DNA of 64,000 nucleotides from Chloroflexota bacterium. GTDB lineage: Bacteria; Chloroflexota; UBA11872; VXOZ01. Position 1 is the first letter of the stretch. Each line of letters starts with the position of its first letter. Below are positions 30,816 through 56,465 of this stretch, one piece after another. A program made the position numbers and the translations under genes. The notes under the pieces are model-generated. The model worked only from the letters and a program-made list of their open reading frames with translations. It had not been told where the DNA came from and did no database searches. The stretch lies in the NCBI GenBank assembly GCA_012270555.1, contig JAAXIC010000033.1, forward strand, positions 1 to 64,000. Reading direction: 5' to 3'.

Positions 30816-30853
30816 AATGTTCAGCCTCAAACACTCACCCACGAGGATCCCGA

Positions 30854-30887
30854 CCCTCACCCTAGCCCTCTCCCAGAGGGAGAGGGG
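30854..30887 (-). repeat. Family A-like repeat overlapping the 3' end of galE
   Basis: CCCTCACCCTAGCCCTCTCC then AGAGGGAGAGGGG, in inverse orientation to copy 1. Read on the minus strand it encodes the last residues of GalE (VPSPSGRGLG) and its TGA stop. Confidence 0.8.
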
Positions 30888-32026
30888 ACAGAGCCATAGC
30901 CGTTGGGGTGCCGCTGCAGCCAGTCCCACGCGCTGGCGATGATGGTCTCCAGGTCCGAGTACGCCGGTTCCCAGCCCAGCTCGCGACGGGTCTTATCGGC
31001 ACTGGCGAGTGATGCCGGGGCGTCGCCGAGACGCCGAGGACACTCCCGCACCGGTATCGGACGGCCGGTCACACGGCGGGCCATCTCGATCACTTCCAGG
31101 TTAGTCGCACCCCGCTCACTGCCGATGTTGTAGATAGTGACCCTGCCCGATCCGTCGTTCCCGCGAGGTGAAACTCCTGCGTCACCCCGTTCGGCAAGGA
31201 ACGTATCCCCTCTCCCTTGAGGGAGAGGGTCAGGGTGAGGGTGAATCCGCGCAGTCCGGCCCGATCCCACTGGACTGGCAGCGCTCTGCGATGGTCCCCG
31301 CAGACGGGATTCCATCTCTTCAATCGCCAGCCGGTGCGCCTGCGCCAGATCCCGCACGTGAATATAGTCCCGGCTCGCGGTGCCGTCGCGGGTCGCGTAG
31401 TCCGTACCGTAGAGATCAAGGTGCGGCCGCGCTCCCTGTGCCACTTGCAGCACGATGGGGATGAGGTGACTCTCCGGTCGATGGTCTTCCCCATACCTGG
31501 CAGTAGCGCCCGCGGCGTTGAAGAACCGGAAGACGGTAGCCGCCATCCCGTGCGCTTGCGCGTACCACTGGATGATGCTCTCCACCTGGCGCTTGCTCTC
31601 ACTGTAAGGATTGAGCGGATCAATCGGATGATCCTCTTCAATCGGTAGTGTTTCCGGCGTGCCGTAGACGCCGGCGGTGGATGAGAACACGATGTGCGGC
31701 GCCTTTGCCGCAAGCATGGCATCCAGGACATTCAGGGTATGGGCGGCATTGTTGCGGAAGTACTTGCCCGGATCATGCATCGATTCGCCCATCTGGATGT
31801 AGGCCGCCATGTGCACGACAACGTCCGGCGCAGCGGCGCACATTGCCTCCCGCACGCCGGCGGCGTCCGCCGTATCACCGCAGACAAGCCCTGCGCGCGG
31901 ATCGACGGCCGCCCGGTGTCCGGTCGCGAAGTTATCAAAGACGAGGACATCGTGCGCGTTATCCAGCAGCAACTCGGTGACGACGCTGCCAATATAGCCC
32001 GCGCCGCCGGTAACAAAGACCTTCAC
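30857..32026 (-). CDS. galE: UDP-glucose 4-epimerase with an in-frame repeat-derived insertion
   Basis: It interconverts UDP-glucose and UDP-galactose with bound NAD+. It has GGAGYIG (7-13), S115/S116 (FSSTAGVYG), Y141 and K145 (YSESK), and RDYIHVRDLAQAH. Residues about 239-294, between the RLAIEEM helix and the RVTIYNIGS strand, are a 56-residue stretch translated from genomic repeats (IHPHPDPLPQGRG and flanks). The last 10 residues and the stop also come from a repeat. Without these, the length is about 324, normal for GalE. All catalytic motifs are intact, so activity is plausible but untested. Confidence 0.88.
   Translation of the reverse strand: MKVFVTGGAGYIGSVVTELLLDNAHDVLVFDNFATGHRAAVDPRAGLVCGDTADAAGVREAMCAAAPDVVVHMAAYIQMGESMHDPGKYFRNNAAHTLNVLDAMLAAKAPHIVFSSTAGVYGTPETLPIEEDHPIDPLNPYSESKRQVESIIQWYAQAHGMAATVFRFFNAAGATARYGEDHRPESHLIPIVLQVAQGARPHLDLYGTDYATRDGTASRDYIHVRDLAQAHRLAIEEMESRLRGPSQSAASPVGSGRTARIHPHPDPLPQGRGDTFLAERGDAGVSPRGNDGSGRVTIYNIGSERGATNLEVIEMARRVTGRPIPVRECPRRLGDAPASLASADKTRRELGWEPAYSDLETIIASAWDWLQRHPNGYGSVPSPSGRGLG
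31151..31315 (-). repeat. Composite repeat cassette inside galE
   Basis: It contains a family C-like part (GTTCCCGCGAGG near 31156), the family A core CCCTCTCCCTTGAGGGAGAG (31208-31227) followed by GTCAGGGTGAGGGT, and a second family C-like end (ACGGGATTCCAT, 31304-31315). Total length is about 165 bases, a multiple of three. It lies wholly within the galE reading frame. Confidence 0.8.
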
Positions 32027-51311: not shown

Positions 51312-51667
51312 TTTCTCGCTCTCCTCTATCTATGCCGCATAGCGTTCTGCAAGAAACTGTTCTCTCTCCAAAGGCAAGCCGGATATGCTCATAGCCTATC
51401 CATGCGCAAGTCAGGACGTCTCTGAAGCCTTTCTCAATGCTAAGACCTGGTGCAGAAGAGACAGGCTTCTCGTACGTCACTGTCCGCGCGCTGCCACAAC
51501 CATACAGTAGCAGGATACTACCACCCCGTCACCGGTCGCGCTGCGCAAGGCGGCGCCGGTCTTCGCACGCGGGCTGCAAACGTGGGCTACCGCGATGGCT
51601 GGTCTCGCCCTGCACTATCGCATCTGTCTATAATCACACTGTTCCACCCAGCACGAAGGGCACCGCC
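51312..51667 (+). other. Divergent intergenic region with a possible -10 box
   Basis: The 356 bases between ilvD and the DUF3604 gene hold no gene or repeat. CTGTCTATAATC places TATAAT at 51629-51634, 34 bases before the DUF3604 start; no good -35 is visible. Confidence 0.4.
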
Positions 51668-53683
51668 ATGACACCACGCGTACGCGCTTCCATTTCACCA
51701 ACCGTAGGCACCGCCGGCGAGTACGGCACGTGGGTTGTGCGCTGCATCGTCGAAGAAGGGGAAATCGGCGCCGGTGACACCATCGCCGTCGCGCTGCCCA
51801 ACACCTGGCACGCGTGGCAACGGAATTCCGCGAAAGGCGTGCATAGCCTCGATCCTAAACAACCCAACTTCGTTTCCGCGCGCGCCTCCCGCAAAAACGT
51901 TGCTATTCTGTGCACCGTGCCCGGCGGCTCTACCGACGAATTTGAGAAGGCCACCCGTGAGGCCCTGGTCGGACCGCCCAACCGCTGCGCCTACCACACC
52001 GAGGTAACAGTGACGCAGGGCACGTTGCAAGCCGGCGACTGGATCGACGTCACCTACGGCAATACCAGCGGCGGCAGTCCCGGTTTCACCGCCGCGCTGC
52101 ATCCCAACGGACCGGAGAACGTGCGCATTGCCGTGCTGCCCGCCGGCGCCGACGCTGAAAGGGTACTGCTGCCGGTAGCGGAAAGCCCGTTTCTGCTTAC
52201 CGTGGCGGGCGCGCCGGTGGAAGTCGCTGCCTACGCCCCCTCCCACGCGCGCGTGGGAGTCGAGGCGGCCTGCCACGTGGTTGCGCTGGACTCCTGGCAA
52301 AATCCCGCCACAGATACGCGCCTCAGATTCACGGTCACGGTCGTTGCGGGCCGCGCACAGTGTCCCAAAACAGTCACACTGAATCCTGAGAGCGGTACGT
52401 GTGTTGTGCCATTCACGCCGACCGCGCCGGGCGTTGTGCGTTTGATGGTAACTAGCCTCACAGAGACCAACGCCCCCTGCGACAGGATCGGGGCGAACGG
52501 GGGAAATGAGCTCGGGATAAATGGGGAGGACACGTGCGGAACTGACGGGGAAGGGACATTCACGGCAGTCTCCAATCCAATCCTCTGCGCGGAAGAGTTG
52601 CTCCGCGAACAGGTCTTTTGGGGGGATCTTCACTCCCATGCCCGGCGCAGCTTCGACGCTACCGGCGACCTTTCCTTCCACTACGCTCGCGACGTGGCGC
52701 GCCTGGACTTCTACGCCCTCACCGACCACGTGGAAGGACTCTCGGACGAGATGTGGCAAGAGATTCGCCTCGCGTCGCAGGACTGGTACGACCCTGGGCG
52801 ATTCGCCACGATCCTCGGCTACGAAGCCACGTTCCCCGCGCCGTGGGCGCATCACAACGTCTACTTTCGCGACGATGACGACGTACGTATCGGCCGCCAC
52901 AACGGCACCGTGCAGGACCTGTGGCGGCAACTCATGCCTGGACAAGCGATGACTATTCCCCATCACACCGGGGTACGCTTCTCACCGAAAGCGAGCAACC
53001 TGCCCGGCGGCACCGGCCCGAACATCGATTGGCAATTCGCCAACGACGCCTTTCGCCGCGTTGTCGAGGTCTATTCCGGTCACGGTCTCAGTGAGTATTA
53101 CGACCCCGATCACCCGCTGGCGTACCAGCACTGCGACTTCTCGTTAAACGACTCGGCAGTTGGGGCCCACTACGTGCAGGATGGCTGGCTCACGGGTCAA
53201 CGCATGGGGACGATCTGCTCGTCGGACAACCATCAGGCGCAACCTGGCAGACGCCAGACCGGCCTCGCGGCGGTCTGGACGCCCGCGCTCACGCGCAAGG
53301 GCATTTTTGACAGCATTCACAACCGCCAAACCTATGGCACCACCGGCGCCCGCATCTTGTTGAAAGCGTGGGTAAACGACACATTCATGGGACAAGAGAC
53401 CGCCAGCGGCAACGGTGTGAGCGTGCGTGTCTGGGCGGTAGGCACGGGGAATATCGCCTGGATTGAGATTCTGCGGGGAGATCTAGACGCGCAGCGCTTT
53501 GACGTGGTCTACCGGCGGGAGCCGGAAGCTGCGGAAGCGGCTTTTTCCTGGGACGATCCAGAGCCGGTTGCTAATGCGCTCTATTACGTGCGACTGCGGC
53601 AGGAAGAGCCTGTAGCCGGCCGCGTGGTGCAGGCATGGTCCAGCCCGGTGTGGGTTGTGCAAAGCCAAGAAAAAGAGGTCTAG
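51668..53683 (+). CDS. DUF3604 PHP-like metal-dependent hydrolase
   Basis: This 671-residue protein has a non-catalytic N-terminal part (about 1-300) of beta-sandwich character, then a PHP-like core: FWGDLHSHARRS, YALTDHVEGL, ILGYEATFPAP, MTIPHHTG and a late CSSDNHQAQPGRR. A short beta domain closes it. DUF3604 proteins are predicted metal-dependent phosphoesterases of unknown substrate. ATG at 51668 with AAGGG is chosen; the frame is open 231 bases further upstream but reads as non-coding. A hairpin starts 11 bases after the stop. Confidence 0.85.
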   Translation: MTPRVRASISPTVGTAGEYGTWVVRCIVEEGEIGAGDTIAVALPNTWHAWQRNSAKGVHSLDPKQPNFVSARASRKNVAILCTVPGGSTDEFEKATREALVGPPNRCAYHTEVTVTQGTLQAGDWIDVTYGNTSGGSPGFTAALHPNGPENVRIAVLPAGADAERVLLPVAESPFLLTVAGAPVEVAAYAPSHARVGVEAACHVVALDSWQNPATDTRLRFTVTVVAGRAQCPKTVTLNPESGTCVVPFTPTAPGVVRLMVTSLTETNAPCDRIGANGGNELGINGEDTCGTDGEGTFTAVSNPILCAEELLREQVFWGDLHSHARRSFDATGDLSFHYARDVARLDFYALTDHVEGLSDEMWQEIRLASQDWYDPGRFATILGYEATFPAPWAHHNVYFRDDDDVRIGRHNGTVQDLWRQLMPGQAMTIPHHTGVRFSPKASNLPGGTGPNIDWQFANDAFRRVVEVYSGHGLSEYYDPDHPLAYQHCDFSLNDSAVGAHYVQDGWLTGQRMGTICSSDNHQAQPGRRQTGLAAVWTPALTRKGIFDSIHNRQTYGTTGARILLKAWVNDTFMGQETASGNGVSVRVWAVGTGNIAWIEILRGDLDAQRFDVVYRREPEAAEAAFSWDDPEPVANALYYVRLRQEEPVAGRVVQAWSSPVWVVQSQEKEV

Positions 53684-53940: not shown

Positions 53941-55293
53941 TCAACGTGCGTCGAGAAATCGTCGAAAGACCTCGCGCCCGCGATAGATGCCCTGCGCTCC
54001 CAGTTCTTCCTCGATGCGCAGCACCTGGTTGTACTTCGCCAGCCGTTCCGAGCGCGTGATAGAGCCGATCTTGATCTGGCCAGCGTTCGTGCCCACCGCC
54101 AGATCGGCGATGGTCGCATCCTCGGTCTCGCCGGATCGCGCGGAGACCACGGGCAAATATCCATGAGCACGGGCGAGACGGAGCGTCGCCACCGCCGCCG
54201 TCAGCGTGCCAACTTGGTTTACCTTCACGAGTACCGCGTTGGCCGCATTGCGCTCAATGCCCTGCTGAAGACGCTGGGTGTTCGTCACGAAGAGGTCGTC
54301 GCCAATAAGCTGCACGCGCCCGCCGACGCGGGCGGTGAGTTGTTGCCAACCGCTCCAGTCATCTTCGGCCAGTCCGTCCTCGATGGAGATTATGGGATAC
54401 GCCTCGACCCACCGCACGAGCAAGTCGACCATTTCGGCGCTGGAGAGTGTGCGGTTCTCCGCGCTTAGACGATACTCCCCCTCGTGATAGAAGTGGGTCG
54501 CCGCCACGTCCAGGCCGATAGCGGCATCTTCCCCGGGCCGATAGCCCGCTTTCTCGATTGCCTGAACCAAGAGCTGCACGGCGGCTTCGTTCGCGCCGGT
54601 CACAGCGTCACTCTCATCCACCGCCGGGGCCAGGCCGCCCTCATCCGCGACCAGCGTGCTCGCACCCCGCTCCGTCAGAATCTCACCCATGGCGTGGTAG
54701 ACATTGCGCACCATCACCAGTGCCTCGCTGAAGCTCCGAGCGCTCAGTGGTATAAGCAAGAAGTCTTGGAAGTCCACGATGCCGCGCGCGTGCAGACCGC
54801 CGCTGAGGATATTCACCATCGGTACCGGCATCTCCCGCCCCTGGCTGCCGCCCAGATAGCGGTAAAGCGGTAAACCAAGGCCCGCCGCCGCGGCGTGGGC
54901 GGTTGCCAGCGAAATGCCAAGCACCGCATTCCCGCCGAGACGGCGCAGATTGGGCGTACCGTCTGTCTCCAAGAGCAGCGCATCGACCACGTGTTGCGAT
55001 ACCGCGTCCACGCCCATCACGGCGGGACCCAGCACTTCATTCACGTGGCGCACCGCGTGGCGCACCCCTTTGCCCTGATAACGGGCCGGATTGCCGTCCC
55101 GAAACTCCAGCGCCTCATGCCGTCCCGTTGACGCGCCCGAAGGCACGATGGCGCGTCCCCGCGCGCCGCTGGCGAGGGTTACGTCCACTTCGACCGTAGG
55201 CACGCCCCGCGAGTCGAGCACCTCCCTGGCATGCACACACGTGATCGTTGTGGGGCGCTTTGTTCCGTCATTCCCGTGAAAACGGGAATCCAT
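53941..55293 (-). CDS. eno: Enolase, start codon supplied by a repeat
   Basis: It converts 2-phosphoglycerate to phosphoenolpyruvate. [18 protein letters not shown], the GASTG loop, metal ligands in [21 protein letters not shown] and IGDDLF, catalytic K in [10 protein letters not shown] and [18 protein letters not shown] are all present. No ATG, GTG or TTG lies between VHARE and a family C repeat. The nearest ATG (55293) is inside that repeat and adds [19 protein letters not shown] lies just upstream. At 450 residues it is about 20 longer than usual. Confidence 0.93.
55267..55293 (-). repeat. Short family C repeat at the start of eno
   Basis: TCATTCCCGTGAAAACGGGA then ATCCAT: the ends of family C without its GC hairpin. 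Its CAT (minus-strand ATG) is the apparent enolase start codon. Confidence 0.75.
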
Positions 55294-55307
55294 CCGTCTC
55301 CCTGACA

Positions 55308-56465
55308 TCAATGCACCGCCTCCCCAGCAATGCAAGCGTAAATGCCATCCATAGTCGCAGGCCGCTCGTAAAGAATGAAGAAACTCACACGCCGCACGCT
55401 CTCCTTGGTCAGTTCATCGGTAATGTATTCGACCGGCGACTTGCCGTCGATCCGCGCCAGCATCAGGCAGCCAAGCTGCAAGCACGTTTCCGCCTGAAGC
55501 TCTGCCCAGTCCACCTCCGGCAGAGTCTCGTTGTATCCTGCCATGAGCGCCGTGACCGACTGGAAGTAGGTCTCTTGGATATGGGAATTGACAATCGACT
55601 TGATAAGCAGGTGGTTGATGCAAAACGCCAGGTCAAAGGCCGGATCGCCCCAGTGCACGACCTCGAAATCAAGCAGGAGAACTGAGTTTGCAGTACCTAC
55701 TTCGTTCTCATTCTGGGAGCTACCTGTCGGCTTGCCCACTCTGTCATTCGTGCGCGAGCCGGAATCTATCGCTGTTTCCCCTCTGTCATTCCCGCGAAAG
55801 CTCGCCCCGTGCCGGGGCGCGGAATCCATCTTCTCCGGCAGCACGAACATATTCTTCGGACTATAGTCCCCATGCACCAGCGCCGTCTTTCGTGCCTTCA
55901 TCTGTGCGATTGCATGCTCAATAACCGGCCTCACCGAAGGGTGCTTCTCCGCAGTCGTGTTGTAGTACGGGTCGACCCGCAACTGCCAGAAGACCTCATC
56001 ATCAATGAACCGCTGGCGCACGTCCGGCTCTTGAATGGCGTGCATCTGCGCCAGCAACCGGCCCGCCGCCGCCGCCACCGGCACGTTCACCACGCCTGCG
56101 AGTAAGTCTTCTTTCCACAGCGTCGCCGCAGCCGGCGCGCACGACATGCCGTAGATGAAGTTCTCCTCATCTATGAAATAGACTTCCGGTACGGCGCCGC
56201 CCGGCAGATGCTCGGTCACGATCCGTAGCGCCTCCGCCTCCCGCAAGGCGCGATCGATGCGCGACGGCCAGTACGCCTCTACACGCAATTCGGGCAGCGC
56301 CTGCTTGAGCACCATGCACTGGGTTGGCGTCGTTACCCTGAGCACGATGTTCGAGACACCGCCGCCCAGGGCTTTCACCGCGACCGCAGTCTCAGATTCC
56401 AGCACGCCCTGCGCCGCGAGGTAACGCCCAATCTCAGCACTGCTCAGCTTATCGAGAGCAAGCAT
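55308..56465 (-). CDS. APH-type kinase with a repeat-derived insertion in the catalytic region
   Basis: This 385-residue aminoglycoside-phosphotransferase-fold protein has the ATP-binding [11 protein letters not shown] (34-44) and K54, the catalytic loop HGDYSPKN (198-205, D200) and the metal-binding [17 protein letters not shown] (265-281). The fold acts on small molecules; the substrate is unknown. Residues 213-261 do not fit the family. They are translated from family C copies ([15 protein letters not shown], then degenerate copies), placed between catalytic and metal loops, where about 12-15 residues are usual. The frame and all motifs are kept. It sits 14 bases upstream of eno. Confidence 0.82.
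55683..55829 (-). repeat. Family C repeat array inside the APH-type kinase gene
   Basis: The 147 bases (49 codons) hold one complete family C copy (CATTCCCGCGAAAGCTCGCC from 55789 through GGAATCCAT ending at 55829) and two degenerate copies (CATTCGTGCGCGAGCCGGAA from 55745; TTCGTTCTCATTCTGGGAGC from 55700). The length is a multiple of three and contains no minus-strand stop in the gene's frame. Confidence 0.8.

Follow-up and report, generated by a model that had tools for sequence, protein, structure and literature searches.

Palindromic repeats read in frame inside galE and other core enzyme genes of a Chloroflexota genus, probably tolerated insertions that later grew

Short palindromic repeats that are mostly intergenic in a Chloroflexota genome also occur, in frame and free of stop codons, inside galE and several unrelated genes, where they probably reflect rare insertions that were tolerated in putatively exposed linkers and then grew at places where insertion was already harmless. 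We infer both these tolerance-and-growth dynamics and the presence of the galE segment in the folded protein. The window, by which we mean the whole stretch of 64,000 nucleotides that was analysed, lies on contig C10 of the 3.18 Mb genome, which comprises 56 contigs.

The galE gene (UDP-glucose 4-epimerase; 30857..32026, reverse strand; Pfam Epimerase E=3e-54) encodes 389 aa and contains an in-frame cassette of 171 nt, or 57 codons (ESRLRG...GNDGSGR), between LAIEEM and VTIYNIGS. Ortholog alignment places this cassette at 31142..31312 on the reverse strand. The first-pass annotation had described a segment of about 56 codons at 31151-31315; the segment is confirmed, as are its frame and its lack of stops, but those limits are a few bases off. 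The same annotation had read it as a family A palindrome with family C-like flanks, a description that holds for two of the three pieces. The family A palindrome (31206..31238, reverse strand, read as PHPDPLPQGRG) is recovered by nhmmer at E=1.1e-9, and its likeness to intergenic copies spans ~90 nt. At 31152..31166 on the reverse strand (TCGCGGGAACGACGG, read as PRGNDG) lies half of a family C (dRS3-like) palindrome, the 3' one, with a score that 0.1% of shuffles attain. The 5' flank (31295..31312, reverse strand, read as ESRLRG), in contrast, is not significant alone (p ~0.07); what support there is for it as a possible 5' half of a C palindrome comes from the galE orthologues L003 and L005, in which a full, unmistakable C element begins at the same codon. 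A second family A copy, at 30849..30901 (reverse strand), forms the last galE codons (GSVPSPSGRGLG) together with the stop codon, and galE also terminates in such a repeat in L002 and L003 and not in L004. The internal and 3' A copies are both of the short form here, whereas in L002 both are of a long form that adds a hairpin module, and this matching within each galE hints at concerted change of the copies. An Rfam search of the window returned no family match.

Alignment of GalE with its relatives, proposed as a check by the first-pass annotation, places the segment within this genus. None of the solved GalEs among the best matches has it, and the two alignments shown stop at residues 236-240 and restart at 293-294. 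GalEs of the class's other families have a short loop at the insert site. Each of the four orthologues found in the genus, from as many other assemblies, carries 32-65 extra codons at the identical site, and the first insertion is therefore most likely older than the genus. The content of the insert differs by species, with a plain C in L005, a long C in L003, A and C remnants like those of this genome in L002, and unrecognisable sequence in L004. To judge from these alignments, the galE insertion appears to be neither recent nor private, but an old insertion repeatedly rebuilt, with content differing in all five species where galE was found. GalE identity to RHO3_bin_22, a Chloroflexota MAG among the nearest named relatives, is 89%.

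The flanks and the insert evolve at different rates. Across the 320 codons that flank the insert, every species pair has a dN of 0.06-0.13 and a dS of 0.7-1.5. For the two nearest species, dN/dS is 0.063/0.712 (~0.09) in the flanks versus 0.237/0.305 (~0.8) in the insert, which suggests near-neutral evolution of the insert. Its neutrality may be incomplete, since it diverges less than the flank synonymous sites (pS 0.25 vs 0.46 in the same two species). With its flanks under purifying selection and its active-site columns invariant, galE looks like a working gene. The AlphaFold model of GalE has a confident fold, with a TM of 0.93 by target length to the Foldseek match GalE 8wxk. In this model the insert runs from helix 224-242 to strand 296-300 and residues 246-292 have pLDDT <50, and it is thus predicted to be a disordered linker, forming a loop between helix and strand.

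Genome-wide, the repeats are palindromes of 20-45 bp from at least three families (core models 26-43 bp). The survey covered 1.60 of 3.18 Mb, with genes called by a simple hexamer model, so that counts at gene edges are approximate. Self-comparison identified 299 repeat regions, of which 250 lay between genes, 32 were at gene edges and 17 fell wholly in called genes, although genes take up 82% of the sequence. Family A has 130 non-overlapping copies in this sequence, and searches with the family models give 341 copies for A, C, D and E together, none of them overlapping. Counting these against chance, another suggested check, places 18 of the 341 copies more than 75 nt inside a gene, versus ~279 expected at random placement, a pattern that fits the earlier proposal of insertion filtered by purifying selection. 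The 18 gene-internal copies are spread over 11 genes, and 10 have a neighbouring copy no more than 160 bp away (random placements average 0.1, with a maximum of 4 in 2000 trials). The other option raised by the first-pass annotation, a repeat type under selection to be without stops in the tolerated frame, is not supported. Stop-free frames make up 0.71 of the frames in intergenic copies for A, 0.83 for C and 0.74 for D, compared with 0.82, 0.91 and 0.78 once those copies are dinucleotide-shuffled and ~0.7 in intergenic DNA taken at random; the repeats show no special lack of stops. The five genomes drawn from the genus hold 10-47 copies each of an exact C 23-mer, which also occurs in 16-40 copies in four genomes from two other families of the class and is rare elsewhere among 301 genomes drawn across the phylum.

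Three further genes carry cassettes of the same kind. An APH-family kinase gene in the window, 25 kb from galE (55308..56465, reverse strand; Pfam APH E=8e-17), contains a 54-codon cassette at 55680..55841 (reverse strand) that begins with a long C element (Clong match E=6e-13). The first-pass annotation had spoken of two in-frame insertions within 25 kb, and this second case is likewise real. The kinase insert measures 54-102 aa across the genus, always at the same site, where the outgroup kinase L196 has a short turn. MoeA (C8:164955-166409) has a C-A-C insert of 65 codons, which is spanned by the Pfam MoCF_biosynth domain; its orthologues have 113-162 codons, and outgroups have a tight hairpin. 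C stands at both ends of all five MoeA inserts, the flanking copies being in direct orientation in the moeA cassettes. Collagen-like GSP/GTP tracts are seen inside the MoeA inserts of two species (L201, L204). UvrA (C20:7631-10819) contains C three times at site 1 and D twice at site 2; across the genus, inserts span 58-340 codons at site 1, where they follow the common order RHSxES...KMDSR, and 19-100 codons at site 2. Same-site inserts of differing content are thus found throughout the genus sample: 5/5 for galE, five complete and one contig-truncated for the kinase, 5/5 for moeA and 6/6 for uvrA. At these sites the outgroups have no insert or a very short one. No cassette has been lost in any species examined, despite synonymous divergence of 0.7-1.5.

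A comparison of 333 orthologous pairs with the genome G001 gave 16 variable internal sites, about five of them with repeat-derived or similar sequence (galE, the kinase, the C17 methyltransferase, C14:25678 and possibly a DUF3604 gene); the remainder are mostly coiled-coil or low-complexity differences. The DUF3604 protein (51437-53683) has 32 extra residues (TETNAPCDRIGANGGNELGINGEDTCGTDGEG) where the G001 orthologue has two, and these are Gly/Asn-rich like decayed galE inserts. In an enolase-like gene (53941-55335), a C element at 55264-55294 falls in the predicted N-terminal extension, so that the start codon may lie inside the repeat or may have been called too early. An NYN/TPR protein (120-2006) has an in-frame family D copy at 842-868, read as RASTGSARTE, and an Eco57I-type methylase of 1231 aa (L067 16309-20000, G000 C7) has in-frame A and C copies within the methylase region. 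The 2824 bases of L065 (G000 contig C5) read wholly as N.

Taken as a set, the inserts share several properties. Each of the 27 inserts collected across the four genes has a length divisible by three and reads without a stop in the frame of its gene; in the other two frames, 11 and 23 of them contain stops. The joint chance of 27 stop-free in-frame inserts is ~1e-29 on shuffled sequences, a figure that is overstated since the orthologues are related. The inserts are hydrophilic and Gly/Ser/Pro-rich, with VILMFWYC residues at 11.7% versus 34.1% in genes, and ATGAC or its complement occurs at 7.7 per kb in inserts versus 1.85 in genes.

We favour an explanation in which short, mostly intergenic palindromic repeats (A, the dRS3-like C, and D) would occasionally land within genes, and selection would remove nearly all of the gene-internal copies. 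Before the genus diversified, a few would have entered putatively exposed loops, in GalE, the APH-like kinase, MoeA and two UvrA sites, in frame and stop-free, and would have been kept. Once a linker existed, later repeat landings and local duplications would also be tolerated, and because additions to an existing linker are tolerated, each site would become a lasting, translated, disordered cassette that is rebuilt in each species. We regard it as an evenly balanced question whether core enzymes of the genus are permanent translated landing sites, through which selfish intergenic repeats keep supplying disordered segments to UvrA, MoeA and GalE. Neutrality with deletion bias predicts some losses and none is seen; a weak benefit or the difficulty of precise deletion may therefore contribute. 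That no species has lost any cassette also leaves room for weak function.

This retention is one of the points in favour of a reading that we consider unlikely, namely that the cassettes were domesticated once inserted and now have a function as disordered linkers, so that the presence of some linker is selected for solubility, spacing or partner binding while the exact sequence is free. The five sites have never been lost in the species examined, their hydrophilic, Gly/Ser/Pro-rich composition suits such a role, and the galE insert is less diverged than synonymous sites. However, outgroups manage without the cassettes, no sequence is conserved across the genus, length varies widely (32-65 aa in galE, 58-340 aa at UvrA site 1), and the dN/dS of the galE insert is ~0.8. 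Still somewhat more doubtful is the view that these are insertion hot spots hit many times independently, rather than sites of one old, inherited event. The strong differences in insert content between species fit that view, and both readings are left open for RPE-4/6/7 of Rickettsia (PMC3767692). Descent is nevertheless favoured over repeated hits because the MoeA and UvrA inserts share architecture, with C at both ends in MoeA and a common motif order at UvrA site 1, and because C begins at the same codon in the galE of L003 and L005; in addition, the galE of G016, a genome from outside the genus that is rich in C (40 exact copies), lacks the insert.

The segments could in principle be left untranslated, skipped by ribosomes or cut from the RNA, which we judge very improbable. 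They are palindromic and may form strong hairpins (the folding energy of the galE insert is -78.7 kcal/mol, z -1.95), and bypassing of palindromic inserts is on record, with ribosomes skipping palindromes in Magnusiomyces mitochondrial genes according to work cited in PMC6649704. Skipped segments need be neither multiples of three nor stop-free, whereas all 27 inserts are both, and for this reason skipping or excision is unlikely. The condition under which the first-pass annotation would have withdrawn its interpretation, that galE is a pseudogene, is ruled out, as is misassembly of the insert. Beyond the odd length of galE nothing speaks for a decaying gene or an assembly error; the flanks are under strong purifying selection in 10/10 species pairs, the active-site columns are invariant, and same-site inserts occur in five genome assemblies.

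The preferred reading, rare tolerated insertion followed by growth, can be set beside several known systems of small repeats. Short, GC-rich, mostly intergenic palindromes in many copies recall REP elements, which RAYT transposases mobilise. Of seven genomes searched, four (this one and three relatives from the genus) have Y1 transposase genes. REP palindromes flank the RAYT gene, but a scan of 10 Y1_Tnp loci gave no A or D match, with one weak C and one E match near one locus. RAYT mobilisation was rejected on these grounds. Intragenic ERIC, RU and QMITE elements (PMC2759123, PMC5896051) are likewise small mobile repeats that are sometimes fused in frame; these are longer, however, and QMITE insertions mostly affect hypothetical genes or the ends of genes, whereas the present inserts lie inside conserved enzymes and are genus-wide. 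A literature search with incomplete coverage found no in-frame insertions of such kind in sponge Chloroflexota.

Family C fits the 20-bp dRS3 pattern of Neisseria, ATTCCC(N8)GGGAAT (PMC3898611), with 25 exact matches in the 1.6 Mb, while spacers of any other length between 4 and 15 give 0 to 2. In Neisseria, dRS3 also serves as the target of a filamentous phage integrase. Several cassettes have C at both ends, in the manner of RS elements between dRS3 copies in NIMEs (PMC3898611, PMC9778887). NIMEs are intergenic units of 50-150 bp with inverted dRS3 flanks, whereas the arrays described here lie within core genes, in the reading frame, with flanking C copies in direct orientation in moeA.

As regards the process, the pattern resembles that of the Rickettsia palindromic elements (RPEs). 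Protein-coding palindromes are reportedly called a unique feature of Rickettsia in the title of Ogata's 2002 paper, and they have been reported from Wolbachia too. RPEs (Ogata 2000, 2002; facts from PMC3767692 and PMC10969869), and especially extended RPE-4 (PMC3767692), likewise lie in frame in many unrelated housekeeping genes, and Rickettsia orthologues all carry same-site insertions in solvent-exposed regions, with a different or no recognisable RPE; for RPE-4/6/7, inheritance versus repeated insertion was left undecided (PMC3767692). In the Chloroflexota genus, galE, the kinase, moeA, uvrA and several genes with internal copies carry repeats in frame without being destroyed, every orthologue in the clade has its insert at the shared site, with content that varies or can no longer be recognised, whereas outside the clade the insert is absent, and ATGAC is enriched as in RPEs. 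The GalE insert is modelled as a disordered loop that may be exposed. RPEs are 100-150 bp units of alphaproteobacteria, found in Rickettsiales and grouped in ten families, whereas the present elements are Chloroflexota palindromes of 20-45 bp, from at least three families, that combine into composite cassettes as long as 340 aa. Because unit length and taxonomic range differ, we do not file the cassettes as RPEs and liken them to RPEs by description and ATGAC content only.

The same pattern with REP/dRS3-like repeats in Chloroflexota suggests that the process is independent of reductive intracellular life and of any one repeat family. The comparative series, with five to six species and at least five sites, allows the conversion of non-coding repeats into protein to be followed, and cautions that extended disordered stretches of MAG proteins may derive from repeats. 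By analogy, the process would work as it does for RPEs, with different, shorter and composite repeats in another phylum as its new elements.
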